A stretch of DNA of 64,000 nucleotides from Stappia stellulata DSM 5886 (GTDB lineage: Bacteria; Pseudomonadota; Alphaproteobacteria; Rhizobiales; Stappiaceae), in contig NZ_KE384083.1 in assembly GCF_000423705.1 (NCBI RefSeq), positions 124,001 to 188,000 on the forward strand, in the 5' to 3' direction. The notes beneath the pieces were generated by a model that worked only from the letters and a program-made list of their open reading frames with translations, ran no database searches and had not been told where the DNA came from. The first letter of the stretch is position 1. The number at the start of each line of letters is the position of its first letter. Shown piece by piece: positions 31,728 through 49,590 of this stretch. The position numbers and the translations under genes are program-made.

Positions 31728-31737
31728 GACATGTCCC

Positions 31738-32794: not shown

Positions 32795-32813
32795 CATATC
32801 AACCCGCGATATG
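32795..32813. repeat. Inverted repeat CATATC-N7-GATATG upstream of cysD
   Basis: A perfect 6-bp palindromic pair with a 7-bp spacer, in an AT-richer pocket about 150 bp before the cysD start. It could be a regulator site for the sulfate-activation genes. No known motif assigned. Confidence 0.3.
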
Positions 32814-32906
32814 CTTTGCGCATGCTGGAAGCAACCGATAATGGCGCCGCGCCGAAAGTTCGAGAAACCAGATTGCCGACAATGGCCGGCCTTTAAAAAA
32901 TCTCTG

Positions 32907-33758
32907 TCAAATTGCCCTGGCGGGATTGTTGGTTGCGCAGATCAGGGCCGCAGTGCGTACGATCAGTCTGTCGTCGCCCGCGGCAAGAAAACCGGGATTG
33001 GCAAAATCGTCGTCGGTCGCCTGATTGCGTTTTCCGTAGAGAAACGGGTTTCCATCGAGCCCCGCGACCGTACCGCCGGCCGCGGCGAGAATGGCGTGGC
33101 CAGCGGCTGTATCCCATTCCATCGTTCGATTGAAACGGGGATAGAAGTCGGCCTCGCCGCGCGCGACCAAACAGAATTTGAGCGAGGACCCGACGCTCAC
33201 CGTCTGCGCCACCCCAAGCCGCTCGAGCAGCAAATCCGTGTTGGCGTCGCGATGAGAGCGGCTGGCAACGGCCACCGGCCGGGCGGCCGCTTGTTCCCGG
33301 ACCCTGACAGGCCGCCATGCGCTTTCAGCGCCCGCGCCCTGCACTCTCTCGAAGGCCCCTCCGCCCCGCGCACCCACGAATGCCTCTTTCCGGTGAGGCG
33401 CAAACACCGCGCCGACCACCGGCAAACCATTCTCCACCAGCGCGATGTTGACCGTGAAGTCGCCGCGACCGGAGATGAACTCGCGCGTGCCGTCCAGCGG
33501 ATCCACAAGGAAAAACCGGTCGGAGATATCCGGAACCGCACCGGACGAAGCCGCCTCTTCCGCCACGACCGGAATATCGGGATAAAGGCGGGAAAGGCCC
33601 GACAGAATGACGTCTTCCGCCCTGCGGTCGGCCTCCGTTACCGGGCTGTCGTCGGGCTTGCGATCAACGCTCACATCGTTGCGGAAGAACGACAGGATGA
33701 TATCGCCGGCTTCGTCGCACACCGCGGCCAGCGCCTGAAGCTCTTGCCCGATCAACAT
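32907..33758 (-). CDS. cysQ: 3'(2'),5'-bisphosphate nucleotidase CysQ
   Basis: 283 residues of the inositol monophosphatase superfamily. The metal site is spread over VVAEEAASS, VDPLDGTREFISGRGDFTVN and the C-terminal MEWDTAAGHAILAAAGG. CysQ hydrolyses PAP, the by-product of PAPS use, and so relieves inhibition of sulfate assimilation or sulfotransfer. ATG 33758 has GGGAG at 5-8 nt and lies 18 bp after the ugd stop, so it shares a transcript with ugd. That pairing of a PAP-clearing enzyme with UDP-glucuronate synthesis fits production of a sulfated uronate-containing polymer, by inference. Confidence 0.93.
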   Translation of the reverse strand: MLIGQELQALAAVCDEAGDIILSFFRNDVSVDRKPDDSPVTEADRRAEDVILSGLSRLYPDIPVVAEEAASSGAVPDISDRFFLVDPLDGTREFISGRGDFTVNIALVENGLPVVGAVFAPHRKEAFVGARGGGAFERVQGAGAESAWRPVRVREQAAARPVAVASRSHRDANTDLLLERLGVAQTVSVGSSLKFCLVARGEADFYPRFNRTMEWDTAAGHAILAAAGGTVAGLDGNPFLYGKRNQATDDDFANPGFLAAGDDRLIVRTAALICATNNPARAI

Positions 33759-33776: not shown

Positions 33777-35111
33777 TCAAGTGTCGGTTGCGGCGTCGTG
33801 CGCAGGCGCCGCCTTGCCAATGCCGCGATAGGTCAGTCCGGCGCGGGCGACATCGTCGGCACGCCAGATGTTGCGCATGTCGATGACGGTGTCGCCACGC
33901 ATCCGTCCTGCGATCTCTTCAAGCGAGAGGCCGCGATAGAGGTTCCACTCCGTCACAACGGCAAGCACGTCGACGCGGTCCGCAACGTCATAGGGATTGT
34001 CGCGCCATTCCGCGCCCGGCAACAGCGGTTCGGCCTGGGACCGCGCTTCCGGATCGTGCAAGACAACACGCACGCCATGCGCCTGAAGCGCCGGCACGAT
34101 CACCAGCGAGGGCGCGTCGCGCACGTCGTCGGTATTGGGCTTGAAGGCAATGCCGAAAATTCCGACCGACTTTCCCTCGGGATCCGGACCGAGCGCGGCA
34201 AGAATCCGCTCCGCCATGTCGCGCTTGCGCGCCTCGTTGACCGCAATGGTCGTCTCCACAAGCCGCAAGGGCGTTCCGTGCCTCTGTCCGGTCGCAGCAA
34301 GCGCCGCCGTGTCCTTCGGAAAGCAGGATCCGCCGTAGCCCGGCCCCGCATGCAGGAATTTGCCGCCGATCCGGTTGTCCAGTCCAATTCCGCTTGCCAC
34401 CTTCTGGACATCCGCGCCGACCTTTTCGCACAGGTTGGCGATTTCGTTGATGAAGGTGATCTTCAGTGCCAGGAACGCATTGGCGGCGTATTTGGTGATT
34501 TCCGCGTTCTCGAGCGTCGAGACGAGAATCGGCGTCTCACGCAGATACAGCGGCTGGTAGAGGCGACGCAGCGTATCCTCGGCGCGGGCATCCTCGGCAC
34601 CGACGACAACGCGGTCCGGACGCATGAAGTCCTCGATCGCCGAGCCCTCGCGCAGGAACTCCGGATTGGATGCAACCGAAAACGCGAGCCCCGGACGCTC
34701 CTGTCGCAGGATCTCCGCCACCTTGCGACAGGTGCCGACGACGACCGTAGACTTGATGACCACGACCGTTCCCTCGCGCATCACGCGCGCGATCTGGCGG
34801 GCGGCTTCATGGACGTAGGTGAGGTCCGCCTCGCCGTCGCCGCGTCGCGACGGCGTCCCGACCGCCACAAAGACCACATCCGCGGCCGCGACCGCCGCAT
34901 CGAAATCCGTGGTGAAGGCAAGGCGCCCCGCATCCAGGTTGCGCTCGATCAGCGCATCGAGTCCCGGCTCGTAAATCGGAACTTCCTTCGCATTCAACCT
35001 GGCGATCTTGTCGGCGTCGATATCGACACAGGTCACATCGAAGCCGAACTCGGAAAAACAGACGCCGGACACAAGTCCGACATATCCGGTTCCAATCATC
35101 GCAATACGCAT
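33777..35111 (-). CDS. ugd: UDP-glucose 6-dehydrogenase
   Basis: 444 residues. N-terminal NAD fold MRIAMIGTGYVGLVSGVCFS, then TPSRRGDGEADLTYV, the helical linker TKYAANAFLALKITFINEIA, and the catalytic cysteine in GPGYGGSCFPKDTAALA, the classic Ugd form. It oxidises UDP-glucose twice to UDP-glucuronate. ATG 35111 has AGGAG upstream. It is transcribed divergently from galE and leads the ugd-cysQ unit. Confidence 0.95.
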   Translation of the reverse strand: MRIAMIGTGYVGLVSGVCFSEFGFDVTCVDIDADKIARLNAKEVPIYEPGLDALIERNLDAGRLAFTTDFDAAVAAADVVFVAVGTPSRRGDGEADLTYVHEAARQIARVMREGTVVVIKSTVVVGTCRKVAEILRQERPGLAFSVASNPEFLREGSAIEDFMRPDRVVVGAEDARAEDTLRRLYQPLYLRETPILVSTLENAEITKYAANAFLALKITFINEIANLCEKVGADVQKVASGIGLDNRIGGKFLHAGPGYGGSCFPKDTAALAATGQRHGTPLRLVETTIAVNEARKRDMAERILAALGPDPEGKSVGIFGIAFKPNTDDVRDAPSLVIVPALQAHGVRVVLHDPEARSQAEPLLPGAEWRDNPYDVADRVDVLAVVTEWNLYRGLSLEEIAGRMRGDTVIDMRNIWRADDVARAGLTYRGIGKAAPAHDAATDT

Positions 35112-35435
35112 GGATGCTCCTGAAGTCGATCTCTGGACAGATGCGGTTGCCCCGCGATGGAGGCACCGGACAGTTTGGCCCGGCGGGCCATTCCCGATGG
35201 GCGGTCCCGGACGGCTTGTCCAGGACCCGTCTATAAGACCCCATCTGCGACGGAAATGAGACGTCCCCCGCCGTGCGACACCACCGTTTCACGTCCAGGG
35301 ACCCGAAAAGACGCAGCGTTGGTGTTCGCTTGCCATCGGTTTGTCAAGCCGTTACCTCGTACGACGTTTGGTTTGCGCGACAAACAGAACGATTCGCGGG
35401 CCTGCCCCCACCCCCCAGAAAACCGGAGAGCGGAA
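35112..35435. other. 324-bp divergent intergenic region ugd / galE
   Basis: It must hold the promoters of both genes. A TATAGA element on the minus strand at about 35228-35233 could be the ugd -10 box, with a poor -35. No clear pair is visible for galE. A frame running through it into galE has no coding character before the galE ATG. Confidence 0.3.
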
Positions 35436-36470
35436 ATGGCGACACTTGTTACCGGCGGCGCCGGGTACATCGGGAGCCACATGATATTGCGCCTGCTCGA
35501 TGCCGGCGAAACCGTGGTTGTCATCGACGATCTCAGCACCGGACATGACTGGGCGATCCCCGGCCGAGCGCATTTCGTCAAGGGCGAAGTCAGTGATCCG
35601 AAAGCGCTGGAGGCGGCCTGCAAGCTGGCCGACATCGATGCCGTGATCCATTTCGCCGGTTCCGTTGTCGTTCCCGAGTCCATTGCCGACCCGTTGAAAT
35701 ACTATCGCAACAACACCTGTGCCTCCCGCGCCCTTATCGAGAACTGCCTTGCGCATCGCATCGGAAGCATCCTGTTTTCCTCTACCGCCGCCGTTTATGG
35801 CGACCCGGAAAGCTGCCCGGTTGCGGAAGAGTCCCGCACCTTGCCACTTTCCCCCTATGGCGCATCCAAGCTGATGGTCGAAACGATGTTGCACGACATC
35901 GCCGCTGCAAGCGACCTGCGCTATGGCGCCCTGCGTTACTTCAATGTTGCCGGCGCGGACCCGCAGGGACGCGCGGGCCATTCGACCGTCGGCGCAACAC
36001 ACCTCTTGAAGGTGGCCTGCGAGGCCGCTCTCGGGGTCCGCGACGGGCTCACGGTCCACGGCACCGACTATGCCACGCGCGACGGAACGGCGGAGCGCGA
36101 CTTCATCCACGTCAGCGACCTCGTGGACGCGCATTATCTCGCGCTTTCGCATCTGCGGGAGGGCGGAGCCAGCTTCACGGCGAACTGCGGCTATGGCCAA
36201 GCCTATTCGGTGCTGGAGGTTATCGAGGCGGTCAAGACGGCCTCCGGCGTCGACTTCCCCGTCCACCTCGGCCCGCGACGTCCCGGCGATTCCATGCGCG
36301 TGATCGCTGACAACCGCAAGATCATGTCTCTTTTCGATTGGCAGCCGGCCTATCGCGACCTGACAACGATCGCCCGCCATGCGCTGGCTTGGGAACACAA
36401 GCTCGGCACGCGCAACGCACCGGACAAAAAGGCCGATGGGTCTGTGGATGTCCCTCCGGATCAGACGTGA
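35436..36470 (+). CDS. galE: UDP-glucose 4-epimerase
   Basis: 344 residues from ATG 35436 (MATLVTGGAGYIGSHMILRL), with GGAGAG upstream. Extended SDR: NAD loop GGAGYIGSH at 7-15, catalytic Ser/Thr in LFSSTAAVYGDP and YxxxK in SPYGASKLMVETM, and the C-terminal substrate segments RYFNVAGADPQGRAG and LGPRRPGDSMRV. It interconverts UDP-glucose and UDP-galactose, or the GlcNAc forms. It sits 266 bp before the polyketide synthase on the same strand and may be an independent unit. Confidence 0.93.
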   Translation: MATLVTGGAGYIGSHMILRLLDAGETVVVIDDLSTGHDWAIPGRAHFVKGEVSDPKALEAACKLADIDAVIHFAGSVVVPESIADPLKYYRNNTCASRALIENCLAHRIGSILFSSTAAVYGDPESCPVAEESRTLPLSPYGASKLMVETMLHDIAAASDLRYGALRYFNVAGADPQGRAGHSTVGATHLLKVACEAALGVRDGLTVHGTDYATRDGTAERDFIHVSDLVDAHYLALSHLREGGASFTANCGYGQAYSVLEVIEAVKTASGVDFPVHLGPRRPGDSMRVIADNRKIMSLFDWQPAYRDLTTIARHALAWEHKLGTRNAPDKKADGSVDVPPDQT

Positions 36471-36736: not shown

Positions 36737-39700
36737 ATGTCCCTTCGGGCTCGCAATACCATCATTTGCGGTTACGCCGCCCGCCTTCCCGGCGCGAACA
36801 GCGTGCAAGACTTCTGGAACCTCCTGGACGACGGACGTTGCACGATCTCGCGGATCGGCGATGACCGGTTCGACACGCGTCGCTATCACCATCCGGAGCC
36901 CAACACGCCGGGTCGCAGCATGACCTTCTCGGCCGGACAAATCGAGGATGTCTGGGGCTTCGACGCCGGGTTTTTCGGAATTTCTCCCCGTGAAGCCGTG
37001 CAGATGGATCCGCAGCAACGGCTATTGCTGCAAGTCGTTTGGGAAGCGATCGAGGACGCCGGCATCCGCTCCTCGGATCTTGCGGGCACGAACACCGGCG
37101 TCTATGTCGGTGCCTCCGCGCTGGACTATCATCAAAGTCTCCTGTTCGACCTTCCCGCGGTCGATATCCAGACGATGACGGGCAACACCCTGTCGATCAT
37201 CGCAAACCGCATTTCCTATATTTTCGATCTGCAGGGTCCGAGTTTCACGCTCGACACGGCGTGCTCATCCTCTTTGGTGGCCCTGCATCAGGCCGTCGCT
37301 GCCATCGAAAGCGGCCAGATCGACACCGCCATCGTCGCCGGCGTCAACCTGCTGCTCAGCCCGTTTTCCTTCATCGGATTTTCCCGTGCCTCCATGCTGT
37401 CGTCGCAGGGGCTGTGTCGGGCCTTCGATGCTTCGGGGGACGGCTACGTCCGCTCGGAAGGCGCGGTGGCGATCGTGCTGCGCCGGGACGGTCCGGGGAT
37501 CGCCGCGCGGGCCCGTATTCTTGCGACCGGAATCAATGCAGACGGGCGAACGGCGGGATTGTCGCTGCCGTCTTCGCCCGCACAGACAGCCCTGTTGCGT
37601 TCCATTTACGGCGATCTCGGGATTGCACCGGAGGATCTCTCGTTCATCGAGGCGCATGGCACCGGAACGCAGGTCGGCGATCCGGCCGAAGCGAACGCAC
37701 TGGGCCAGGTGATCGGTCGCGCGCGCAGCAGCGTGCTGCCCATCGGGTCCGCCAAAACCAATGTCGGGCATCTGGAACCGGTCTCCGGCCTCGTCGGAAT
37801 CCTCAAGTCTGTTCTGGCGCTTCAGCACGGCGTCCTGCCGCGCTCCCTCCATTTCGACACACCGAACCCCAACATCGACTTTGACGGTCTGAACCTTGCC
37901 GTGGCGAGCGAACCGGTTCCCTTGAGCGGCGACGTCAGCCGTCTAATCGCCGGGATCAATTCCTTCGGCTTCGGAGGCACGAACGCGCACACCGTGATCG
38001 GCGAAGTTGCGCCGCAAGGCGGCGCGAAAAGCACGGTCGCCGACGATGCGCCGCTGGTCGTCTCCGCCCGCAGCGAGCCGGCGCTTCGCGAACTGGCCGC
38101 TCGCTACAGCACGCTGCTCGCCCGGCCCGGCATCTCCTCCGGTGCCGTTGCGGATGCGGCAATTCGCACCCGCGACCTGCACGATCACCGACTGGTGGTG
38201 CTGGGCGACGGCGAGACAAAACGCGCCGCCCTTGCCGCCTTCGCAAGCGGCAAGACAGAACCGTCGACCGTAACCGGGCGAGGTCCGGGCACGCGCGGCG
38301 GCCTCGTCTTCGCGTTTTCGGGCAATGGCGCGCAATGGGCCGGAATGGGCCAGCAAGCCTACCGGAGCGACACGGTGTTTCGCGAAGTCTTCGAGACCGT
38401 CGACAGGCACTTCATGGCGGTCTCCGGCTGGTCACTGGTCACGATGCTGTTTTCCGCCGATCTGGATCAGGAGATCGGCCGAACAGAGATCGCCCAACCC
38501 CTGCTGTACGCGCTCCAGGTCGCGATGGTCACGGCGCTCGAAAGTCGCGGCATCGTGCCCGACATGGTGGTCGGCCACAGCGTCGGCGAAGTTGCCGCGG
38601 CCTGGTGCGCCGGCATGCTGGACCTTGCGAGCGCAACCCGCATCATTCATGCCAGATCCACACAGCAGGAAGTGGTTCGCCATCTGGGCACAATGGCTGC
38701 CCTCCTGCTGCCGGAAACCGAGGCGCGCGCCGCTCTCGCTTCCCTGGCGCTTCCCGGGCTAGAACTTTCCGCCATAAATTCCCCGCGCAGCGTGACGGTG
38801 TCGGGTCCGGCGGAGAGCATCGACGCCTTCGCCCGTCACGCAAGGGCGAAGCGTTGGGCACTGCGCAAGCTCGAGATCGCCTATCCGTTCCACAGCGCGC
38901 TGGTCGACCCGATCGAGGCGCCGCTGCGCGATGCACTGGGCGAGATCCGGTCGGCACCGCCGCGCGTGCCCTTCTTCTCTTCGGTGCATCCCGATGCGGA
39001 AACCATCACCCCGGATGCCACCTACTGGTGGGAAAACGTGCGGCGGCCGGTGCAATTTTCGCAGGCCGTCGCCCGCATTGCCGAAGCCGGTGCAGGCGTC
39101 GTCGTGGAAATCGGGCCGCGGCCGCTTCTGGCGACGTACCTGCGCGACACGCTGGCAGGTGCGGGCACGCAGGCCAATGTCGTGACTTCCTTCGACAAGA
39201 CAGGCGACAAGACACCGGATGGCGAGGCCCTGGGGCCCGTCGTGGCGCGGATCGTCGCCGCCGGCGCGTCACCCGATGCCGACCTCTTTGTCGGCCCGCA
39301 GGGCTCAAGCCTCCCCTTGCTGCCGCATTACCCCTGGCAGACCGTTCCCTTCGTCATTTCGCAAACCGACGAACGCGTTCAGGGGCCGCGCAGCTGGCCG
39401 CTGGCCGGCGCACGGACAAAGCCCGACGGCTGCGAATGGTTCAACGTCATCGACACGCATCTGCAGCCGTTTCTCGCCGACCACAAGGTCGAGGACGCGG
39501 TGGTGTTTCCGGCCGCGGGCTACCTGGAAATGGCCCTGCGCGCCGCGCTCGACTGGACCGGGCAGGATGCAGCGGAACTGGACAATGTCGAGATCCTTCG
39601 CCCTCTCCTGCTCGATGGCGGAAAAGCACAGGAGACCCGCGTTCGCCTGTCAGCGGACGATCGCGTGATCGAGATCTGCGCCCGTCCGCGCCTTGCCGGC

Positions 39701-42700
39701 GCCGACTGGTCGCTGCACGCAAGGGCCGGGTTCCGGTCTCCCTCGGCCGACGCGAGAGGGCATGCCGGCCCGGCGCAAGGTCCGGCACAGCCGGGTTCGA
39801 CGCAGGTATCGCATGACACCATCTACGAGATGACACGCGCGCACGGTCTTCAGTATGGCGCCGCATTCCAACTGGCCGACGGCGCGACCGTCCTTGACGC
39901 ACGCACGGCAACCGTCTCGCTCCGCCCCCCGGCCCAGGGAGATGGAGACCCGGTGTACTCACTGCATCCGGCACTTGCGGACGCGGCCTTTCACGGCCTG
40001 TTCGCCCTCTTGTCCAGCAACGGAATGACCCGGGCGGACAGCGGTTTCCTGCCGGTCCGCGCGGGTACGGTCCAATTGATCGATGCGTCGGCCACGCCGA
40101 CTGCCGCGCGGATCACGATCGAAAGGGCCAGCCCGCGCTCGATCCTTGCAGGCTTTGAATATCTGGATGCGCATGGACAGGTGATGGCCCGCCTCGACGG
40201 CGTTCGCTTCAAGGCGGTTCACTTCCATCTGGATCAGAGCGGCCCCGTCTGCGCCTATCACCTTGACGCCCGCCTCCTGAGGGGAGCCGATACCGCCATT
40301 TCGCTGTCTCCGGATGCCATCGCCGCGCTTGCCCGCGAGGCCCACCTCCTTGCAGAGCCGGGCACGGGCTTCGCACCCGACGACGACCGCCTCCTGCTCG
40401 ACGCGCTTGCCCGAAGCGTCCTGCATGCAGGATTTCACGAAACCTTTGGCGAACAACCGTTTTCGGTCGAGGACGTTGCCGGAAACGGCATCATCGATGA
40501 GACCGCGATACCGTTCGTCGAGCATTTCCTGCCCGAGCTGTCGCGCCACGACCTGACGCAGTTCGCCGACGGCCTCTGGACAGTTGTCCGGCCGGACCCG
40601 GCCCTTTCCCCCGATGCGTTGCTGCGTGTCCTCTTCGAGGCGGCGAACGAACATGGCATCGAGGCCGCCTTGCTGGCGCGACTGGCCCGTGATTTGCCGA
40701 CACTCCTGCGAAAGGGGCTGCCGGAGACGGCAGCGGCTTTCGCGGCGCCGGGCCTTCTGGAGACCTGCCGCAACGACAGCCCGGCAAGCGCCGCGCTTGG
40801 CGCAAGCCTGCGCAGCCTGTTTGCCGGCCTGATCGAGACGCTCCCCTGCGATCGCCCGATATCCGTGCTCTTCGTCGGATCCGGTCACCCCAAGCTTGCA
40901 GCCGATTTCAGCAGAATGCTTGACCCGCGCACGGCGCAAATGACCGTCGCCGACAACACGCAAGCATCGGTCGAGCGGCTCCGCCGCCGGTGGCGCGGTC
41001 GCCCGGGCACCCGCTTCCTGGCCCTCGATGCGGCGGAAGCCGCGGCCGGCAGCGCCTTCGACATCGTTGTTGCCTGCGATGCGCTCGGTTCTCCGGACGC
41101 GGTGCCTGTTGGCGCCCTTCATCGTCTGATGACCCCGGGTGGGCAACTCATCGCCGTGGAGCGCAACGCGAACAGCGCGTTCGACCTGATTTTCGGATGC
41201 GGTCTGGACATGTGGCACAATGCCGACACCGGCGACGGCGCGACGCTGTCCCGGCTGGATGCCGAGGGCTGGACACGGGCACTTGAACACGCCGGCTATG
41301 TCTCGGTCGAAGCCCATGGCCTAGCCGACAGCGCCGTCGACGCGACGCTTCTGCTCGCCTGCGCCGCGCCGCGATCGCCAGCAACGGAGACGGACGCGCC
41401 AACCTCTGTCGAGCGGGAAGCCCCGCGTCGCATGGTGATCCTCAGCGATGCCGAAGAAAAGGGCCACGCGGTCGCCCTGGCGTTGCAGGAGACCCTCGCG
41501 CCCATGGGCATCCTTGCCAGCCTCGCCATCCCGGATACGGAAACGCGACGTACGAGCGAACGCGACTGGAGGATCGACCTCGACGATCCGCATGTGTGGA
41601 CCGGCGACCTTGCCGATGCCGCTGGCGATGGCGTGATCGACCTCCATGCGGCGTTCGCACCGTCATCCGACCCACTGCACCTAAGCACGACCCGCCTGTG
41701 GGCTCTCACCCGCCTTCTGAACGGGCGCGCCGGCAGTGCCGGGCCAATCCTGATCGTCGCGCCGGATGGCGCGCGGGGCACCACCTGCAACCAGGCGCCC
41801 GACCCCGCGCAGGCCGGTGTCTGGGCTTACGGGCGCGTTGCGATCAACGAGTTTCCCGACACCGACATCCGCCTTCTCGACATCCGCAAGAACCTGGACG
41901 CAAGTGCCGCGGCCTTGCGGATTGCAGCGGAAATCGATCATCCGGATGCGGAACGCGAAATCGTGCTCGACGACGACCGCCGGCTGGGCCTTCGCATCGT
42001 ACGCAGCGATCCTCCGGCCCTGGCGCCATCAGTCGGTCGGCGACACGACGCGATGCGGCTCGACATTGGCCAGCAAGGCGCACTCGACCGGCTGTCCTGG
42101 TCCGCGGCGATGCGCGAAAGCCCCGCCGGCGACGCTGTCGAAATCGCCGTCGAGGCCGCCGGCCTCAACTTCCGGGATGTGATGTGGGCGCTCGGCCTGC
42201 TGCCGGAAGAAGCACTTGAAGACGGTTTCGCCGGTCCGACACTGGGCATGGAATGCTGCGGCCGGGTCGTCGGCGTCGGGCCAGATGTGCGCGGGCTCGC
42301 GCCGGGCGACCGCGTTATCGCGTTCGCGCCCGCGTGTTTTTCAAGTCACGTTCTCGTCTCGCAGACAGGGTGCGTTCCGGCCCCGGACGGCATGGACAGC
42401 GAAGCGGCCGCAACCATCCCCGTCGCCTTTCTCACCAGTTACTACGCGCTGACGCATCTGGCGGCACTGACCGGCGGTGAAAGCGTGCTTATCCACGGTG
42501 GCGCAGGCGGCGTCGGCCTTGCCGCGATCCAGATCGCGCAACATGCCGGGGCCACGGTGTTCGCGACAGCGGGAAGCGCGGAGAAACGCGCGCTTCTGGA
42601 AGGACTTGGCGTCGACCATGTGCTGGATTCCCGCTCGCTTTCCTTCGCCGACGAGGTGATGTCGCGAACCAGCGGGGCGGGCGTAGACGTGGTGCTGAAC

Positions 42701-44320
42701 TCGCTCTTCGGCGAAGCGATGGAGCGCAGTCTTTCCGTTCTGAAGCCCTTCGGCCGGTTCCTGGAACTTGGAAAACGCGACTTCTACGAGAACACGCATC
42801 TCGGACTGCGGCCGTTCCGTCAGAACCTGAGCTATTTCGGCATCGACGCGGACCAGTTGCTCGTGCATCAGCCGGCCCTGGCGCAACGTCTTCTGCGCGA
42901 GGTCATGCAGCTTTTCGCCGATGGCACGCTTCGTACCCTTCCCTATCGGGCGTTCGAAGCGGACGACGCGGTCGCCGCCTTCCGCCTGATGCAGCAGGCA
43001 GGCCATATCGGAAAGATCGTGATCCGGCCGCCGGAGGTCGTGACCGACGCCGCATGCCAAGCGCAGCCGCCCGTCTCCCTAGACCCGGCGCGCGCGCATG
43101 TGGTCATCGGCGGATTTGGCGGTTTCGGTGCGGAACTCATCCGGCGGCTTGCCGACATCGGCGCGCGCAAGATCGCCGTCCTGTCGCGGCGCGGCGAAAA
43201 GACGGAGGGTGCTGCCGAGCTGATCACGGAACTGGCGGCGCGCGATGTGACGGTCACGGGACACGCCTGCGATGCGTCCGACGCCGCCGCCATGACGGGT
43301 GCGCTTGAGCGCATTCGCGCTGCCTTTGGCGGAATCTCGGGCGTCTATCACACGGCCATGGTGCTGGATGACAGGCTGATCGCCAATATGAACGAAGCGG
43401 CCTTGCGCAAGGTTCTCGCGGCCAAGGTCAGCGGCGCGGATCTTCTCGACCGTCTGACGCGAGACGACGACCTGCAGCAGTTCGTGCTCTTTTCCTCGGC
43501 GACCACGCTCGTCGGAAACCCCGGTCAGGCCAACTACGTTGCGGCCAACGGCTATCTGGAAGGACTCGCGGCGAAGCGCCGCGCGGAAGGGCGGCCGGCC
43601 CTTGCCGTTGCCTGGGGCGCAATCTCCGACGCCGGATATCTTGCCCGGAACGCCGATGTCGGCGACAAGCTGGCGCGCAAGCTGGGACGCCATGCCCTCA
43701 GCGCGCGCGAAGCGCTTGACGGCCTGTGCGCGCTGATGAGCGAACCGCAAACCGACATCCGCCTGGCGGCAACCGGCTATGCCCGCATCGACTGGGCGGC
43801 GGCACGTCGCGATCTTGCCCTGCTCGCCACGCCTTACGCGGAGCGCCTCGATATCGACAGCGCGGAGGCGAGCGGCACCGATGCGGCGGCCGTCGACCTT
43901 GCTGTCCTGCTCGAGGGCCTTGACCGCCCGGGCGCGATTGCCCGGGTTTGCCAGCTTCTCTCGGTCGAGATCGGCCGGATCCTGCGCATTGGCGAAGAGG
44001 AAATCGATCCGGCGCGGCCGCTGGCGGACGTGGGAATGGATTCGCTCATGGCGCTTGAACTGAGAATGGCAGCCGAGCGGCAATTCGGCATCGACATCCC
44101 GTTGATGTCGCTCGCAAATGGCGCAACACTCGCCGACATGGCGGCCCGCATCACCGATCAGGTGCAAACAGGCGCGAAGGATGCCGCGGAGCTTTCCGAT
44201 GCGGCTCGGGCGAATGCGATGCACCACCTGAAGGAGGACACTTTCTCCGACAGCGCCGAAATGGAGGACGTCGCCGCTCGCATCGAGGAGAAGATGAAAG
44301 ACATGAGGAGCCTGCTTTGA
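36737..44320 (+). CDS. rkpA: Type I polyketide synthase, RkpA-like (KS-AT-DH-MT*-ER-KR-ACP)
   Basis: 2527-residue single-module, fully reducing synthase. KS about 5-425 with Cys176 (DTACSSSLVALH), His307 (EAHGTGT) and His345 (NVGHLEP). AT about 520-830 with Ser615 in GHSVGEVAAAW. DH with His916 (DHKVEDAVVFP; Asp replaces the usual Gly) and Asp1082 (ADAAFHG). A methyltransferase-like segment about 1365-1530 whose SAM loop reads VLFVGSGHPKLA and looks degenerate. ER about 1780-2100 with HGGAGGVGLAAIQIAQ. KR from about 2120 with LDD (B-type) and Tyr2267. ACP with Ser2436 in GMDSLMALEL. No thioesterase, so the chain must leave through the coupled oxoamine synthase. Architecture and partner match RkpA of rhizobial K-antigen loci. 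The product is inferred to be a saturated long acyl chain. No clear promoter was found in 36471-36736. Confidence 0.93.
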   Translation: MSLRARNTIICGYAARLPGANSVQDFWNLLDDGRCTISRIGDDRFDTRRYHHPEPNTPGRSMTFSAGQIEDVWGFDAGFFGISPREAVQMDPQQRLLLQVVWEAIEDAGIRSSDLAGTNTGVYVGASALDYHQSLLFDLPAVDIQTMTGNTLSIIANRISYIFDLQGPSFTLDTACSSSLVALHQAVAAIESGQIDTAIVAGVNLLLSPFSFIGFSRASMLSSQGLCRAFDASGDGYVRSEGAVAIVLRRDGPGIAARARILATGINADGRTAGLSLPSSPAQTALLRSIYGDLGIAPEDLSFIEAHGTGTQVGDPAEANALGQVIGRARSSVLPIGSAKTNVGHLEPVSGLVGILKSVLALQHGVLPRSLHFDTPNPNIDFDGLNLAVASEPVPLSGDVSRLIAGINSFGFGGTNAHTVIGEVAPQGGAKSTVADDAPLVVSARSEPALRELAARYSTLLARPGISSGAVADAAIRTRDLHDHRLVVLGDGETKRAALAAFASGKTEPSTVTGRGPGTRGGLVFAFSGNGAQWAGMGQQAYRSDTVFREVFETVDRHFMAVSGWSLVTMLFSADLDQEIGRTEIAQPLLYALQVAMVTALESRGIVPDMVVGHSVGEVAAAWCAGMLDLASATRIIHARSTQQEVVRHLGTMAALLLPETEARAALASLALPGLELSAINSPRSVTVSGPAESIDAFARHARAKRWALRKLEIAYPFHSALVDPIEAPLRDALGEIRSAPPRVPFFSSVHPDAETITPDATYWWENVRRPVQFSQAVARIAEAGAGVVVEIGPRPLLATYLRDTLAGAGTQANVVTSFDKTGDKTPDGEALGPVVARIVAAGASPDADLFVGPQGSSLPLLPHYPWQTVPFVISQTDERVQGPRSWPLAGARTKPDGCEWFNVIDTHLQPFLADHKVEDAVVFPAAGYLEMALRAALDWTGQDAAELDNVEILRPLLLDGGKAQETRVRLSADDRVIEICARPRLAGADWSLHARAGFRSPSADARGHAGPAQGPAQPGSTQVSHDTIYEMTRAHGLQYGAAFQLADGATVLDARTATVSLRPPAQGDGDPVYSLHPALADAAFHGLFALLSSNGMTRADSGFLPVRAGTVQLIDASATPTAARITIERASPRSILAGFEYLDAHGQVMARLDGVRFKAVHFHLDQSGPVCAYHLDARLLRGADTAISLSPDAIAALAREAHLLAEPGTGFAPDDDRLLLDALARSVLHAGFHETFGEQPFSVEDVAGNGIIDETAIPFVEHFLPELSRHDLTQFADGLWTVVRPDPALSPDALLRVLFEAANEHGIEAALLARLARDLPTLLRKGLPETAAAFAAPGLLETCRNDSPASAALGASLRSLFAGLIETLPCDRPISVLFVGSGHPKLAADFSRMLDPRTAQMTVADNTQASVERLRRRWRGRPGTRFLALDAAEAAAGSAFDIVVACDALGSPDAVPVGALHRLMTPGGQLIAVERNANSAFDLIFGCGLDMWHNADTGDGATLSRLDAEGWTRALEHAGYVSVEAHGLADSAVDATLLLACAAPRSPATETDAPTSVEREAPRRMVILSDAEEKGHAVALALQETLAPMGILASLAIPDTETRRTSERDWRIDLDDPHVWTGDLADAAGDGVIDLHAAFAPSSDPLHLSTTRLWALTRLLNGRAGSAGPILIVAPDGARGTTCNQAPDPAQAGVWAYGRVAINEFPDTDIRLLDIRKNLDASAAALRIAAEIDHPDAEREIVLDDDRRLGLRIVRSDPPALAPSVGRRHDAMRLDIGQQGALDRLSWSAAMRESPAGDAVEIAVEAAGLNFRDVMWALGLLPEEALEDGFAGPTLGMECCGRVVGVGPDVRGLAPGDRVIAFAPACFSSHVLVSQTGCVPAPDGMDSEAAATIPVAFLTSYYALTHLAALTGGESVLIHGGAGGVGLAAIQIAQHAGATVFATAGSAEKRALLEGLGVDHVLDSRSLSFADEVMSRTSGAGVDVVLNSLFGEAMERSLSVLKPFGRFLELGKRDFYENTHLGLRPFRQNLSYFGIDADQLLVHQPALAQRLLREVMQLFADGTLRTLPYRAFEADDAVAAFRLMQQAGHIGKIVIRPPEVVTDAACQAQPPVSLDPARAHVVIGGFGGFGAELIRRLADIGARKIAVLSRRGEKTEGAAELITELAARDVTVTGHACDASDAAAMTGALERIRAAFGGISGVYHTAMVLDDRLIANMNEAALRKVLAAKVSGADLLDRLTRDDDLQQFVLFSSATTLVGNPGQANYVAANGYLEGLAAKRRAEGRPALAVAWGAISDAGYLARNADVGDKLARKLGRHALSAREALDGLCALMSEPQTDIRLAATGYARIDWAAARRDLALLATPYAERLDIDSAEASGTDAAAVDLAVLLEGLDRPGAIARVCQLLSVEIGRILRIGEEEIDPARPLADVGMDSLMALELRMAAERQFGIDIPLMSLANGATLADMAARITDQVQTGAKDAAELSDAARANAMHHLKEDTFSDSAEMEDVAARIEEKMKDMRSLL

Positions 44321-45708
44321 GCCGCGACGGCGACAACGCCTCCGGGACCGGACGACGGCGGGATCTGATGGCAAGTCTCAGAGCCGGGCACGAAGCCGCA
44401 CGCCAGCGCAAGCCCGCGCCCCCTCCAGGCGCGCCGGTCAAAGCCGCCCCCACTGTCACGTCCTTTGATTTTTCAAAGCTTCCCGCCTTCCGGCAGCTGA
44501 CCATGCATCGCGCGGCAGCCGACATGATCGGGTTGGACAATCCCTTCTTCCAGCCGCACGACGGTGTTGCGGGCGCCACGACGGTGATCGACGGCGTGCG
44601 CCACGACAATTTCGCCTCCTACAACTACCTGGGCCTCAACGGCCACCCCGAGGTCAATGCCGCGGCCCTTGAAGCGGTCCGGACCTACGGGACAAGCGCC
44701 TCCGCCAGCCGCGTGGTCGCCGGCGAACGCCCCATTCACCGCATGCTCGAGACACGACTGGCCGAATTGCATGGCGTTGAGGATGCGGTGGTGATGGTGA
44801 GCGGCCATGCCACCAATGTCACCACCATCGGCCATCTGCTGTCGCCAAACGACCTCATCGTTACCGATGCACTCGTTCACAATTCGATCAGCGAGGGCGC
44901 CCGCCTGTCGCATGCCGCGCGGATGAACTTTCCCCATGGCGATCTCGATGCGCTGGAGCGCTTGCTGGGCGAGCAGCGTCACAAGTTTGACCGTGTGCTG
45001 ATCGCCGCGGAAGGCATCTACAGCATGGACGGGGATTTTCCCGACCTGCCCCGCCTCATGCGCATCAAGCAAATGTACGATGCGTGGCTTCTGATCGACG
45101 AGGCCCACTCCATCGGCGTGATGGGCGCAACCGGACGCGGCATCGCGGAACACTTCGGCACCGACCCCACGGGTGTGGAAATGTGGATGGGCACGCTGTC
45201 GAAGACCTTCTCCTCCTGCGGCGGATACATCGCCGGGTCGAAGGCGCTATGCGACTACCTGCGCGCGACAGCACCCGGCTTCGTCTTTTCCGTCGGACTG
45301 TCCCCTCCGCTTGCCGCCGCAGCCCGTGCCTCCCTGGACGTCATGGCGCGCGAACCGGAACGCCTTCAACGTCTTGCCGAGAACGGACGGCGTTTTCTGG
45401 AGCGCGCAAGCGAGGCCGGTCTCGACACCGGCCCGAGCGCCGGGCTCAGTGTCATTCCGGTCATCGTCGGCGATTCCATCGGCGCGGTATCGCTGTGCAA
45501 CCGGTTGCTCAAACGCGGCATCAATGCATTGCCGATCGTTTTTCCAGCCGTAGCGGAAAAATCCGCGCGCATCCGCTTTTTCATCACCAGCGAGCACACG
45601 AACGCGCAGATCGACCGCGCAGTCGATGCAACGGCGGAGGAACTTGCCGCCATCCGGACGACGAACACCCGGTTTTCCGATCTCGTGCGGAACGGAAAGC
45701 CGGAATAG
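44317..45708 (+). CDS. rkpG: PLP-dependent alpha-oxoamine synthase, RkpG-like
   Basis: 463 residues. The start is TTG at 44317, overlapping the PKS stop (TTGA) with GAGGAG upstream, so the two proteins are made in step. A disordered proline-rich N-terminus of about 70 residues precedes a fold-type I aminotransferase domain of the 8-amino-7-oxononanoate synthase / serine palmitoyltransferase family: FASYNYLGLNGHPEV, YGTSASASRVVAGE, LIDEAHSIGVMGATG, and the Schiff-base Lys296 in GTLSKTFSSCGGYIAG. Such enzymes condense an acyl thioester with an amino acid, losing CO2, to give an alpha-amino ketone. Coupling to an ACP without thioesterase implies that the acyl-ACP is its substrate. Serine or glycine are the likely amino acids; this cannot be read from sequence. 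Confidence 0.92.
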   Translation: MSRDGDNASGTGRRRDLMASLRAGHEAARQRKPAPPPGAPVKAAPTVTSFDFSKLPAFRQLTMHRAAADMIGLDNPFFQPHDGVAGATTVIDGVRHDNFASYNYLGLNGHPEVNAAALEAVRTYGTSASASRVVAGERPIHRMLETRLAELHGVEDAVVMVSGHATNVTTIGHLLSPNDLIVTDALVHNSISEGARLSHAARMNFPHGDLDALERLLGEQRHKFDRVLIAAEGIYSMDGDFPDLPRLMRIKQMYDAWLLIDEAHSIGVMGATGRGIAEHFGTDPTGVEMWMGTLSKTFSSCGGYIAGSKALCDYLRATAPGFVFSVGLSPPLAAAARASLDVMAREPERLQRLAENGRRFLERASEAGLDTGPSAGLSVIPVIVGDSIGAVSLCNRLLKRGINALPIVFPAVAEKSARIRFFITSEHTNAQIDRAVDATAEELAAIRTTNTRFSDLVRNGKPE

Positions 45709-45718
45709 ACGGCGCCCT

Positions 45719-46873
45719 TCACAATCCGATCTTGCGACCGATCCAGGACGCCTGCTGGCGTGCCATGCGAAAGAAGCCGTGAAGGCGGTCGACGCGCTGC
45801 GCCGCCAGCCGTTCAATGAGAAGCTCCGGCGAGCATGGACTCAGTGTCTTCGGATCCAGCGTGACGGGGTAGTCGACGAGCGCGACATGGACGAGGGTTG
45901 CCAGATCGGGACGCCCGGTTCGTCGCGGCATCGGCGTCAGATCCCGGGTAAGCCCCCAGCCGGCATAAAACGGCATGCCATGCACGGTGACGGGCGTTTC
46001 GCGCAACAGGGCCTCGAAGCCGGCAAGCGAGGAAAATGTTTCCACCCGGTCGACCGTCTCGATCAGGTCGACGATATCGCCGCCCACGACAACATGATCG
46101 GCAAGCCCCTTGAGGTCGCCCGCCTCGAGCCGACCTGGGCGCAAGCCCGCCGCAACATCCGGATGCGGCTTGTAGACGATCCAGGCGTCTGGATCCCTTG
46201 AACGCACCCGACGCAGAAGCTCGAGGTTGACGTTGGCGCAGTTCGCGCAGTCGATCGTTGCACTGATCGAGCGGCGTACGCCGGCATCGTCGGCGACCTG
46301 TCCGGGCACAAGCACCGCCTCGCGCCCCTGCGGCGGAACACATCCCGCGCCGCGCCTGCCGACATTATACTTGCTCAGTCCCGCAGCCACGATCAGGCGC
46401 CGGAGGTCTTGCGCCCTGGCGCGTTCGCCGGACGACAGCCGACGGGTGTTCAGCACCCGTTCCATGCGGCTTTCCCGCGTTGCATCAAAATAGATGCCCA
46501 GATCGTCGAAGGCGAGCGCGGCGCCGCGCGCAAGTCCCGCGCCAAGCCCGACCGAGCGCAAAAACCCGTCCTCGATCCGCCAGAGCTCCACCCCCGCGTC
46601 GGCGGCCCTCGCCTCCACATCGGCGGAGACGGCGGCCGCCCAGCCAAGCACGCGCCCGCCGCGCATGCCCGCTGCCGCGATCGCGGATCCGGCGTCGCGG
46701 CAAAAGCTGAGTGGACGGGCGTCGGACCCGAAGGCCGCCGCAATCGCCCTGTGATTCCAGGACTTCGCGCCGAAGCAAAAGGCCGGCCGGTCGACAAGCG
46801 CATCCCGACGCCGCACGGCATCACGCGCTGCTGTTTCGACCGTCGTTTCGGGATCGCCGAGCCGATGTGTCAC
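45719..46873 (-). CDS. kpsC: KpsC-like capsule beta-Kdo transferase, single-domain form
   Basis: 384 residues from GTG 46873 (VTHRLGDPETTVETAA), which has a purine-rich GGGGC/GAGGA leader; a longer GTG frame to 46927 overlaps the preceding gene. Motifs of the KpsC/LipA family: VELWRIEDGFLRSVGLG (about 95-111), IYFDATRESRMERVLN, LSKYNVG, VLVPGQVADDAGVR, WIVYKPHPDVAAGLR and SLAGFEALLRETPVTVHGMP. KpsC of E. coli has two such halves (about 670 residues), which together build the poly-Kdo linker joining capsule to phosphatidylglycerol; here only one half-equivalent is present. Convergent with the oxoamine synthase gene, 10 bp apart. Last gene of the wza-kpsS-kpsS-kpsC operon. Confidence 0.88.
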   Translation of the reverse strand: MTHRLGDPETTVETAARDAVRRRDALVDRPAFCFGAKSWNHRAIAAAFGSDARPLSFCRDAGSAIAAAGMRGGRVLGWAAAVSADVEARAADAGVELWRIEDGFLRSVGLGAGLARGAALAFDDLGIYFDATRESRMERVLNTRRLSSGERARAQDLRRLIVAAGLSKYNVGRRGAGCVPPQGREAVLVPGQVADDAGVRRSISATIDCANCANVNLELLRRVRSRDPDAWIVYKPHPDVAAGLRPGRLEAGDLKGLADHVVVGGDIVDLIETVDRVETFSSLAGFEALLRETPVTVHGMPFYAGWGLTRDLTPMPRRTGRPDLATLVHVALVDYPVTLDPKTLSPCSPELLIERLAAQRVDRLHGFFRMARQQASWIGRKIGL

Positions 46874-46898
46874 GCTAGCCCCATCCTCTGCCCCTTTC

Positions 46899-48209
46899 CT
46901 ACAAGCGGACGCCGAGCGCTCTGGCACGTTCGAGGCGCGGTGGCGGTTCGTTGACCAGGTCCGGCACGCCGTCGAAAGGCGCCAGCAACCGGGCGGAAAT
47001 CCCCTCGACCGCCGCGTTCAGTCCCCGACGATTGTGGATCGATCCGCGCACCTGCGTGAAAGCGGCAAGCGCCCTGACAAACGCCTGGACCCGTAGCGGA
47101 GCGGGCGGTTGCGGCGTGCTCCAGAAAGTGTCCAGATCCCCCTCGTGCGTCAAGCCGGGACCGTCATAGATCGCCGGAACGAGCGACTTGACCGGTACGC
47201 CCGCGCGCATTGCATCCAGTCCCACGGTCGAGTTGACCGTCACGACGCCGCTTGTTCGCGCGAGAAGCGGGCGCAGGTCGCCTCCATCCAGAAAGACCAC
47301 CCGTTCCTCCAGGGCGAATTCGCGCGCCAGATCCGCAAGCGCCGAGCGCCAGTCGATCCAGCCATTGTCAAGCGGATGCGACTTGACCACCAGCCGTGTT
47401 CCCGCGGGCGCATGACCGGCGAAGGAGGCGACGACCTCGCGCAGGGCGTCCCGCATGGAGGCATAGGGCGATTGCGAGACGATCTGGTAGTCGCCCTCCA
47501 TCTGCAACGGCAGCACGAAGAACGGTTCGCTCCAGCCAAGGACGGTTTCTTGCAGGGCCGTCGCGCGTCGGCGGCGAAGCGGGGCGCGCGCAAGCCGCGG
47601 CAGCCAGAGTATGTAATCGAAAACCGGCGGAAGCGGCGTATGACGCCTGTGGTGGGGGAAAAACAGCCAACCAAGGGCGACATTCGGCAAGTGATAGCTG
47701 ACATCCTGCCATGCCTCGAGCGCAAATGAGGCCGGGTAGCACGGTGTGATATCCACCTCGCCTGCATTCTCGCTGAGGCGCGCAAGCGCCCCGGGGGCGA
47801 CGGGAAACCGGCTCAGCACACCGAGCCCCCCGCGTTCCAGCGTCAGGAAGCCCGGACGGACAAGGCCCAGCTCGGTGACATGAACGGCGATCCCGAGGCG
47901 CTCGGCCGCGATCACCGCCTCCCGGTGATAAGGCCGTGTGTCGCCATGGACCACCAGGTCGGTCACGCCTTCTTGCGACAACAAGGTCTCGATCCACATC
48001 GGCCACGTGTCGAGACGGCCGCGATAGGAGGAGGATCCGGCACCGTGCCAGTGCAGCCAGTCGCCGACGCAGAAATTGATCCGCCGGACCGAATGCCCGG
48101 CCGCGCTCAATCTTGCGCCGATCAGCCGGTACAGCGGCGAAAGCGGACCTTGAAGAAACAGGAACCGGCGCGGCGACGAGGCGGCCAGCCGGTCAGTCGC
48201 GCCACGCAC
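46899..48209 (-). CDS. kpsS: KpsS-like capsule polysaccharide protein (paralogue 1)
   Basis: 436 residues from GTG 48209, which has GGGAGG 7 nt upstream; the start lies inside the end of the preceding gene (17-bp overlap). KpsS/LipB family: FLFLQGPLSPLYRLIGARLS, WHGAGSSSYRG, PYHREAVIAAERLGI, FFVLPLQMEGDYQIVSQSPY, VVKSHPLDNGWIDW and VVTVNSTVGLDAMRAGVPVK. KpsS places the first Kdo on lysophosphatidylglycerol at the cytoplasmic face of the inner membrane. It is related to the next gene along its whole length, so the pair is a tandem duplication that has diverged. Confidence 0.86.
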   Translation of the reverse strand: MRGATDRLAASSPRRFLFLQGPLSPLYRLIGARLSAAGHSVRRINFCVGDWLHWHGAGSSSYRGRLDTWPMWIETLLSQEGVTDLVVHGDTRPYHREAVIAAERLGIAVHVTELGLVRPGFLTLERGGLGVLSRFPVAPGALARLSENAGEVDITPCYPASFALEAWQDVSYHLPNVALGWLFFPHHRRHTPLPPVFDYILWLPRLARAPLRRRRATALQETVLGWSEPFFVLPLQMEGDYQIVSQSPYASMRDALREVVASFAGHAPAGTRLVVKSHPLDNGWIDWRSALADLAREFALEERVVFLDGGDLRPLLARTSGVVTVNSTVGLDAMRAGVPVKSLVPAIYDGPGLTHEGDLDTFWSTPQPPAPLRVQAFVRALAAFTQVRGSIHNRRGLNAAVEGISARLLAPFDGVPDLVNEPPPRLERARALGVRL

Positions 48210-49590
48210 GCCACCACCTCCCGGTCTTGCCGCGCGCGGCGATCTCATCCGCAAAGGTCACCGGAATGCCCAGGGCGCGCGCGCGACGGGCACGCGGCGG
48301 CGGCGGCGTGGCGCAGCCCGGCTCGTTGACCGCACCTTGTGCAATCCGTGCGGCAAACTCGCGTGCCGCCGCCGCCTTGCCATCCCGCGTGTAGAAATTG
48401 CCCTGGATCTGAATGGCATGCCCCATCAGCCGCTGGACGGACTGATAGGTGTCGGGATCCGGGGCTTGCGGGGTCCGCCAGAAACGGTCCAGCGGCAACT
48501 GACAGGTAAGCCCCGGCAAATCGTATACGGCGACCCCTAGCACCTTCACGGGACAGCCGATCTTGATCGCGTGCAGTCCGGTGGTGCTGTTGACCATGAC
48601 CGCACCGGCGGCGTGCTTGAGCAGGGTGACGAGATGCCCGCCATCCACAAGATGGACGCGGCGCTTGATGCCATGCCGGCGCGCAAGCTGACGCACGATC
48701 TTGCGCCACGGCTCGATGCCCTGATCCATCGGATGCAGCTTCACGATCAGTTGCGCGGCCGGATGGGCGTGAGCCGAAAAAGAGGCCATGACCTCGTCCA
48801 GCGCATCGGCAATATGGGCGTACTGTGCGTTGTAGCGCAGCTGGTAATCGCTTTGCATCTGCAGCGGAAAGACGAAACACGGACAATTCGATTCAATCAG
48901 GTCGTCGATCAGTATCGTTGCGATGCGGTCGCGACGACGGGCAAGCAGGAGACGCGGGACCGTCGCCAAATACTCGGCGACCGGATGGTAAAACTTGTCG
49001 GCGACAAAGCGCGGAAACGCCAGGACGTCGAACGTATTCACCAGATGGAACAGCACTTCATGCAAGGCTTCAAGCCAGAAGGGGTGCCGAAAGCGCTCCG
49101 TCATGTCTACGGGCGGGAGACCGTCGGCAGCGGCGCGGATCGCCGTCACATCCTCGGGAAAAAGAGAGCGAACCGACATCCCGTCGAGTTCGGCCGTAAT
49201 CCAGTCGGGTCTCAGGTAGCCGTGTTCATAGGAAACCGCCCGCACTCCGTTTTGCCGCGCGATCTCCACGGCCGCCGAGTGATAGGGAAAGCGATCCTGA
49301 TAGAAAACGATGTCGGTGACGGCATTGCGGACCAGGAAGTCCTCCAGAAACGCCGGCCAGTCCGACAGGCTGCCACGGTAGTTCACGCAGCGCGCGTCAT
49401 GCCACACAAACCAGTCGGCCAGGCTGAGGTTGACGCGGAGGGTCTTGTGCCCAAGGGAAGCCAGCTCATCGGCAACGCGGCGCGGAAAGTCGGATGGCGG
49501 CCCCTGGAGGAAGAGCACGACACGCGCGGAACCGTCCGGGCGGCGCACGCCCTCGGCTTCGTCGCGTTCCCTGTGCAGATCCTCGGTCAT
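48193..49590 (-). CDS. kpsS: KpsS-like capsule polysaccharide protein (paralogue 2)
   Basis: 465 residues from ATG 49590, with GGAGAAAG just before. Same family as its neighbour: VLFLQGPPSDFPRRVADELA, VWHDARCVNYRGSLSDWP, DRFPYHSAAVEIARQNGVRA, FVFPLQMQSDYQLRYNAQY, IVKLHPMDQGIEPW and VMVNSTTGLHAIKIGCPVKV. The C-terminal tail is arginine-rich. Two KpsS paralogues next to a half-size KpsC suggest that the Kdo linker steps are divided among three single-domain transferases; this is inference. It follows the export lipoprotein gene by 116 bp. Confidence 0.86.
   Translation of the reverse strand: MTEDLHRERDEAEGVRRPDGSARVVLFLQGPPSDFPRRVADELASLGHKTLRVNLSLADWFVWHDARCVNYRGSLSDWPAFLEDFLVRNAVTDIVFYQDRFPYHSAAVEIARQNGVRAVSYEHGYLRPDWITAELDGMSVRSLFPEDVTAIRAAADGLPPVDMTERFRHPFWLEALHEVLFHLVNTFDVLAFPRFVADKFYHPVAEYLATVPRLLLARRRDRIATILIDDLIESNCPCFVFPLQMQSDYQLRYNAQYAHIADALDEVMASFSAHAHPAAQLIVKLHPMDQGIEPWRKIVRQLARRHGIKRRVHLVDGGHLVTLLKHAAGAVMVNSTTGLHAIKIGCPVKVLGVAVYDLPGLTCQLPLDRFWRTPQAPDPDTYQSVQRLMGHAIQIQGNFYTRDGKAAAAREFAARIAQGAVNEPGCATPPPPRARRARALGIPVTFADEIAARGKTGRWWRAWRD

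Follow-up and report, generated by a model that had tools for sequence, protein, structure and literature searches.

On a stretch of 64,000 nucleotides from Stappia stellulata DSM 5886 (contig NZ_KE384083.1, positions 124,001 to 188,000; "the window" below), a gene for an iterative polyketide synthase (PKS) and the overlapping gene for an alpha-oxoamine synthase (AOS) probably form the Stappia version of the capsule-lipid module of the rhizobial rkp-1 and Burkholderia wcb loci, with an amino-lipid as the acceptor on which the capsule is started. The core of this idea is not new: the rkp-1 region is already described as making and modifying a lipid carrier (PMC4881576), its product being called a "lipid carrier or anchor" (PMC3557214), so that the original prediction for this locus, in proposing a lipid for the capsule, restates a hypothesis already in print, to which it adds an explicit amino-ketone chemistry. 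What is added here is the co-occurrence of the gene pair with Capsule_synth genes, a clade of KpsS proteins that accompanies the pair, and the likeness of RkpI to phosphoglycerol transferases; taken as a whole, the original prediction is partly supported.

According to a review, rkp-1 mutants either have no capsule or fail to secrete it (PMC4881576), while the rkp regions and RkpU are described in PMC7902896. PKSs of the WcbR/RkpA type are reported from capsule clusters (PMC3908369), and a wcbR-A deletion is reported to lose capsular polysaccharide I (PMC5507470). Capsules that depend on ABC transporters are stated to begin on a lipid acceptor and to retain it, and phosphatidylglycerol linked to 3-deoxy-D-manno-oct-2-ulosonic acid (Kdo) is given as a conserved capsule terminus, the Vi antigen excepted (PMC12220298). 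A paper defining the lipid made by rkp-1-type genes was not found in the open-licence PMC literature; in print this lipid is postulated.

The PKS and AOS genes

The PKS open reading frame (ORF) starts with ATG and encodes 2527 aa, laid out as one module: ketosynthase (KS)-acyltransferase (AT)-dehydratase (DH)-(degenerate C-methyltransferase)-enoylreductase (ER)-ketoreductase (KR)-acyl carrier protein (ACP). Pfam places KS at residues 9-374, AT at 524-821, DH at 896-1162, ER at ~1799-2096, KR at 2121-2297 and ACP at 2411-2472, and among the 16 Pfam families listed there is no thioesterase or reductase release domain. The seventh domain is invisible to Pfam and lies in the stretch of ~600 aa between DH and ER, where a profile of 16 sequences matches PKS C-methyltransferases (CurJ, 5thy, E 9e-40) as well as ketoreductase structural subdomains; it is read as degenerate because the segment at the S-adenosylmethionine motif is VLFVGSG in the window protein and varies among relatives. 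The motifs of the other six domains are kept among relatives (a comparison of 64 ORFs, a handful of which are antisense shadow ORFs). The seven-domain reducing synthase of the original prediction, ending in an ACP and lacking a thioesterase, is accordingly what the gene encodes. Its KS, read in translation, carries DPQQR and HGTGT as in RkpA, the motifs given as a rule for WcbR/RkpA (PMC3908369), and the single module, the missing thioesterase and the AOS gene directly downstream place the protein in the RkpA/WcbR group. The predicted likeness to RkpA and RkpG is also borne out, the best blastp segments against the Sinorhizobium meliloti rkp-1 proteins giving 39% identity over 1325 aa for the PKS and 50% over 460 aa for the AOS (54% by tblastn); in the S. 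meliloti record too the AOS gene directly follows the PKS gene.

The AOS (463 aa) starts with TTG at 44317-44319, within four bases that it shares with the end of the PKS gene (stop codon TGA, 44318-44320), just as the original prediction had it; translation might alternatively begin at an ATG 17 codons further on. The tight coupling that this suggests is a wider property of the pair, the same 4-base overlap being found in 25 of 54 non-fused ORF pairs (a set that includes near-copy loci and two pairs from one genome), and in Planktothrix (locus L071, 5587-13185) PKS and AOS lie within one annotated protein. In a Streptomyces locus (L070, 9371-14194) part of a PKS is fused to an AOS, and an MMPL transporter lies next to it. 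A further apparent fusion (L073) was rejected, since there the AOS frame simply has no stop codon across the PKS gene.

With its pyridoxal phosphate lysine, stacking His and DEAH motif all present, and with matches at E <= 0.001 to 54 solved sequences of the alpha-oxoamine synthase superfamily, the AOS belongs to that superfamily, but it matches 12 NCBIfam families without reaching the curated cut-off of any. This holds for serine palmitoyltransferase (SPT; scores against cut-offs in bits: NF047600 295.0/640, NF047599 262.1/500, NF047603 181.6/670), BioF (TIGR00858 347.2/426.45), glycine C-acetyltransferase (NF005394 298.2/460) and 5-aminolevulinate synthase (TIGR01821 243.2/338.55), and its motifs SASASR and HNS are unlike those of solved SPT and KBL chains. 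That the product is sphingoid-like, as had been proposed, or derived from serine does not follow from these matches. Paired AOSs mostly show SY[ND]YLG, S-x-S-A-S-R, and HNS or HNC; an attempt to read serine as against glycine or alanine from these motifs was dropped because HNS, which L130 and a second AOS of the Stappia genome share, decides nothing on the amino acid. That second AOS (L105, G000:C2:786000-805900, at 9048-10286 on the reverse strand) is 43% identical to the window AOS, and its neighbours (inositol-3-phosphate synthase, a short-chain dehydrogenase/reductase (SDR), a CTP_transf_1 gene, a DUF4833 gene and an LptF/LptG-like gene) make a sphingolipid or inositol-lipid operon likely. 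The nearest named relatives are Stappia species, AOS identity being 87% in S. stellulata.

Capsule genes on the opposite strand

Kdo-linker genes had been predicted directly opposite the pair, and three genes with PF05159 (Capsule_synth) domains do lie there (45719-49590, reverse strand; CS3, CS2 and CS1 in Table 1); they are the genome's only PF05159 matches at E <= 0.001. CS3 corresponds to one beta-Kdo-transferase module and not to a two-module KpsC. Of the two modules of E. coli BL21 KpsC it is closer to the C-terminal (40% identity over 324 aa) than to the N-terminal (29%); the former is titled beta-Kdo 2,7 transferase in T. dismutans, and the family profile of CS3 finds the KpsC structure 6mgd (E 5e-74). 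At 402 aa (404 in L009, 390 in L010, ~540-650 in most other relatives listed) it has an N-terminus ~150 aa shorter than in most relatives, and this part seems to have been lost in the S. stellulata group.

CS1 and CS2 are respectively 46% and 45% identical to S. meliloti RkpJ, but are called "KpsS-like" because they miss the NCBIfam KpsS cut-off (NF050054, 600 bits) with 204.3 and 193.6 bits. The AlphaFold model of CS1 (mean local confidence, pLDDT, 85) gave UDP-GlcNAc 2-epimerase as first Foldseek match and KpsC (6mgd) as second (TM-score 0.61 by target length); sequence searches of the PDB returned nothing for CS1 (with a profile) or CS2. The adjoining KpsD-like protein shares 34% identity with the product of the S. 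meliloti gene that precedes rkpA, so that by its RkpJ/KpsS-like and RkpU/KpsD-like genes the locus belongs with rkp-1. All 24 close relatives preserve the order PKS, AOS, CS2, CS1, KpsD, and 23 of them also have CS3 (a 25th locus returned by the search, on a 6-kb contig of Longimicrobium with a distant AOS, was not counted).

Co-occurrence with capsule genes

A pair was scored in the order survey of 150 genomes when KS and AOS both matched at E <= 1e-120. Thirty genomes qualified; in 28 of them KS and AOS lie on one contig, ~7-8 kb apart, with PKS adjoining AOS in every case, while in G120 and G014 they fall on separate contigs of draft assemblies. PF05159 was present in 27 of the 30 pair genomes and in 24 of the other 120 (odds ratio 36, Fisher p 1e-12), a test in which G103 counts as pair-free although its AOS adjoins a PKS cut off by the contig end. 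A sample of 398 genomes across the phylum contained 16 with the pair, and PF05159 was found at E <= 1e-15 in 15 of these and in 48 of the remaining 382; it was present in all 11 phylum pair genomes that lie outside the order sample. Location points the same way: of 20 pair loci, 11 contained capsule glycosyltransferase genes and 5 KpsD-like genes, compared with 0 of 20 for either in stretches elsewhere on the same contigs. These associations, together with the KpsS tree below, support the predicted link to the capsule.

Three genomes with unusual arrangements may be mentioned. G082 has two pairs (L083 and L084), the first near a GDP-mannose dehydratase gene, a Wzz-like gene and an ABC transporter gene; in G119 (L094) the AOS gene is followed by one that encodes a 4HBT thioesterase domain; and G086 (L128, G086:C102) has a block AOS-KpsC-RkpI (opposite strand)-KpsS-SDR in which the KpsS domain sits inside an ORF of 1190 aa. 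The 20 kb fetched from G086 hold no PKS, and KS matches at E <= 1e-100 are absent.

The KpsS tree

A pair that alters the lipid acceptor should be accompanied by a KpsS unlike that of genomes lacking the pair. The first tree, with 62 rows, put 46 of the 47 pair rows on one side of a branch and E. coli KpsS among the pair-free rows. A second tree (78 rows) omitted 12 of the 47 pair rows and 3 of the 13 pair-free rows of the first as near relatives, and added KpsS from 10 of 11 new pair genomes (G456 was left out for its weak match) and from 20 of 48 pair-free genomes with PF05159. All 46 of its pair rows, including the 11 newly fetched, fell in a 52-row clade (support 100/91) that also holds the AOS-only G086, whereas 25 of 30 pair-free rows lay outside it, as did E. 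coli KpsS, whose clade comprises 11 rows, all pair-free. A prediction recorded before fetching had named 8 pair and 18 pair-free genomes (two of each were added later), and it held for all 9 pair rows and for 15 of the 18 pair-free ones, the misses being G449, G435 and G459. In the three families that hold both kinds of genome (f24, f28 and f42) the type of KpsS tracks the pair, and the row from G103 (L098) is labelled as a pair row in both trees, though that genome is pair-free in the order test. The pattern fits a switch of acceptor, but it could alternatively reflect joint transfer of linked genes.

SDR and RkpI genes in related loci

In describing the locus as a two-gene factory the original prediction was right about the coupled pair, but probably drew it too small, because related loci often add an SDR gene and some add a gene resembling phosphoglycerol transferases. 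Among the 24 close relatives an SDR gene lies between AOS and CS3 in 14 (titled Roseibium, Labrenzia and Stappia sp. BW2), resembling the SDRs of Caballeronia and Pseudomonas loci, and in the other 10, Stappia-type loci included, there is none. Further afield the orders are KpsD-PKS-AOS-SDR-(RkpI)-KpsS in S. meliloti (L067), SDR-RkpI-PKS-LpxC-like-AOS in Caballeronia (L069) and RkpI-KpsS-PKS-AOS-SDR in Shinella; a Pseudomonas plasmid locus has PKS, AOS, KpsC-like, RkpI-like, SDR, KpsS-like and Kdo genes, and three genomes of family f94 have KpsC-KpsS-SDR-RkpI-PKS-AOS in one same-strand run (KpsC lying partly or fully inside the fetched stretch in L184 and L185-L186).

The mere presence of an SDR was dropped as a marker of the pair, since control stretches match too: at E <= 1e-8 the counts were 9 of 20 pair loci and 5 of 20 controls (p 0.32). 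Only closer matches separate the two (above 110 bits, 9 against 0, p 0.0012; above 160 bits, 6 against 0, p 0.02); these thresholds were picked after the data were seen, and L112, a stretch of the Stappia genome outside the cluster, holds an SDR at 122-124 bits. The best SDR elsewhere in the Stappia genome reaches 36%; the best candidate for a relocated gene (G000:C3:224958-225695, 35-36% to the Roseibium SDR) was dropped.

RkpI-type matches reach E <= 1e-100 in eight of the 150 order genomes, seven with the pair and G086 with AOS only (p 1.5e-6), the next match being at 1e-47; the search model (A1) contains sequences from two of the eight (G095 and G117), and when these are left out all 6 strong matches are still in AOS-bearing genomes (p 3.6e-5). 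RkpI lies near the pair in 2 of 20 pair loci and in 0 of 20 controls, which is not significant alone. S. meliloti RkpI has matches in a solved phosphoglycerol transferase, GacH (E 4e-9), and in lipoteichoic acid (LTA) primase (E 0.001), and six RkpI-type proteins have in common invariant residues resembling a metal site, which we take from LtaS to be catalytic. An LTA-like gene on contig C6 of the Stappia genome was not counted as RkpI because its match is weak (E 5e-22) and it has no RTEF motif.

Proposed pathway and alternatives

In the favoured reading, of a capsule-lipid module, the PKS would build an acyl chain on its own ACP (its domains appear intact) from malonyl units, the AT motif YPFHS fitting that extender, and, lacking a thioesterase, would pass it to the co-translated AOS. 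As family chemistry, gene overlap and natural fusions suggest, the AOS would condense the chain with an amino acid under decarboxylation and so release it as an alpha-amino ketone. In most relatives an SDR probably reduces this ketone, and in some a phosphoglycerol-transferase-like enzyme may modify it further; because both steps are absent from the Stappia cluster, an unlinked enzyme may perform them there, or a simpler lipid may be used. To judge from co-occurrence, co-location and the KpsS tree, the RkpJ-type KpsS proteins and the KpsC module would then use the amino-lipid as acceptor when they begin the Kdo linker of an exported capsule.

A more specific version can be put forward only tentatively. 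The acceptor of the E. coli capsule is the lyso form of phosphatidylglycerol, and bacteria with RkpA and RkpG might build their capsule on an amino-lipid mimic of it: PKS chain, AOS condensation, reduction by SDR to an amino alcohol and phosphoglycerol transfer by RkpI would give a single-chain phosphoglycerol lipid, used by the RkpJ-type KpsS lineage in place of lyso-phosphatidylglycerol. Stappia would have a reduced form, as the last two steps have gene support in other lineages but are absent from its cluster. Topology weakens the phosphoglycerol step: membrane helices are predicted for RkpI-type proteins, their catalytic domain is of an extracytoplasmic family and LtaS relatives work outside the cytoplasm, whereas KpsS and KpsC work inside it.

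Several observations weigh against the capsule-lipid reading. The survey p-values come out too low because the rows share ancestry and are not independent; three of the 30 order pair genomes have no PF05159 (G014, which is fragmented, G082, with 20 contigs, and G119, with one); and 12 of 29 pair loci have no capsule glycosyltransferase in the fetched stretch. In the first KpsS tree the clade support is merely 87/81 and a Pseudomonas pair row lies outside, while in the second 5 of 30 pair-free rows (G071, G087, G449, G435 and G459) fall inside the pair clade. Searches for KpsM, KpsT and KpsE in the window, its 100-kb flank and sister stretches, with no genome-wide search, gave only weak KpsT matches, and the amino-acid specificity of the AOS cannot be read from its motifs.

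One alternative, which we regard as rather unlikely, is that the lipid carries the polysaccharide only transiently, or marks it for export, and is not its final anchor. The wording of the reviews ("lipid carrier", "carrier or anchor"; PMC4881576, PMC3557214) leaves room for this, and the predicted membrane location and extracytoplasmic-family domain of RkpI-type proteins make a late step outside the cytoplasm possible; ABC-transporter capsules, however, are described as starting on and keeping their lipid acceptor (PMC12220298). That the pair instead makes a free amino-lipid or secondary metabolite (a membrane lipid or a signal), its capsule neighbours reflecting shared regulation or co-inheritance, seems improbable in view of the co-occurrence, the co-location, the KpsS clade and the reported rkp-1 phenotype (PMC4881576), even though pairs without PF05159 exist (G082, G119) and distant PKS-AOS genes have non-capsule settings (a fatty acyl-AMP ligase in Planktothrix, the MMPL transporter in Streptomyces). 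Use by the AOS of acyl-CoA or a housekeeping acyl-ACP, with the PKS product going elsewhere, would suit the block in G086 but is very improbable given the adjoining genes in 28 of 28 same-contig genomes, the frequent 4-base overlap, the Planktothrix fusion and a PKS in which Pfam finds no other release domain.

If KpsS does comprise two lineages matched to two lipid acceptors, the lipid anchor would not be universal among ABC-transporter capsules and the acceptor would be predictable from sequence; the likeness of RkpI to phosphoglycerol transferases would make a long-standing problem accessible to defined in vitro and mass-spectrometry tests.

Other features of the window

Table 1 Features of the PKS-AOS locus (window coordinates).
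Feature	Position	Strand	Basis
UDP-glucose dehydrogenase family	33777-35111	-	Pfam
UDP-glucose 4-epimerase (GalE)	35157-36470	+	TIGR01179 394.9 bits, cut-off 262.3
RkpA/WcbR-type iterative type I PKS	36737-44320	+	ORF, Pfam, mid-region profile, motif alignment
AGGAG, putative ribosome-binding site of AOS	44306-44310	+	Sequence; 6 bases before TTG
RkpG/WcbT-type AOS (pyridoxal phosphate)	44317-45708	+	ORF, Pfam, motifs
CS3, single-module KpsC-type retaining beta-Kdo transferase	45719-46927	-	PF05159, identity to KpsC, family profile
CS2, KpsS-like (RkpJ-type) glycosyltransferase	46899-48254	-	PF05159 E 2.6e-64
CS1, KpsS-like (RkpJ-type) glycosyltransferase	48193-49590	-	PF05159 E 1e-72
KpsD/RkpU-like polysaccharide export protein (Poly_export + SLBB)	49707-50894	-	Pfam

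The UDP-glucose dehydrogenase likely supplies a capsule precursor; GalE has an N-terminal extension of ~93 aa and adjoins the PKS gene in Stappia-type loci only. Genes cysNC, cysQ and cysH lie near the pair in Stappiaceae (29844-33758, reverse strand, in the window; also L102, L103 and L023), and cysNC with cysQ in two f94 genomes (L184, L186), so that a sulfated product is possible. Two window ORFs (61235-62701 and 18114-18731, both forward) have no Pfam match at E <= 0.001.

Comparison with known systems

The comparison with rhizobial rkp-1 that had been suggested holds in part. Like S. meliloti rkp-1 (rkpU, rkpA, rkpG, rkpH, rkpI, rkpJ; names assigned by gene order and papers, the record L067 itself having none), the Stappia cluster has KpsD-like, PKS and RkpJ homologues and an AOS with the 4-base overlap, but it lacks RkpH (the SDR) and RkpI, has two RkpJ-type proteins and not one, includes a KpsC module, and carries its capsule genes on the strand opposite the pair. 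The S. meliloti record (CP090106.1) is labelled pSymB, yet it is 3.7 Mb long and carries secD, and may be the chromosome.

The Burkholderia-type wcb locus of Caballeronia (L069) likewise has PKS and AOS within a capsule export locus (AOS 52% identical), differing in an LpxC-family gene between the two; WcbS and WcbT (the AOS) are what we take to be the names used in such loci. In the group 2 capsule region of E. coli BL21 (L153) the KpsS-like proteins share a Pfam family with those of Stappia and the C-module of KpsC is the one resembling CS3, but there is no PKS-AOS pair and KpsS falls outside the pair clade; the capsule is described as built on phosphatidylglycerol (PMC12220298). The SPTs of Rhodobacteria, which are reported to take their acyl chain from a dedicated acyl-ACP (AcpR), share with the pair the AOS fold and an acyl-ACP donor (PMC9386255); there, however, a free ACP is charged by an acyl-ACP synthetase (AasR) and not by a PKS, and the window AOS falls under the SPT cut-offs. 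Finally, the Swf PKS/fatty acid synthase of sponge symbionts is also a mono-modular reducing PKS and was once compared with WcbR/RkpA, but SwfA is set apart from these by its KS tree and motifs (PMC3908369), and the motifs of the window protein are RkpA-like.

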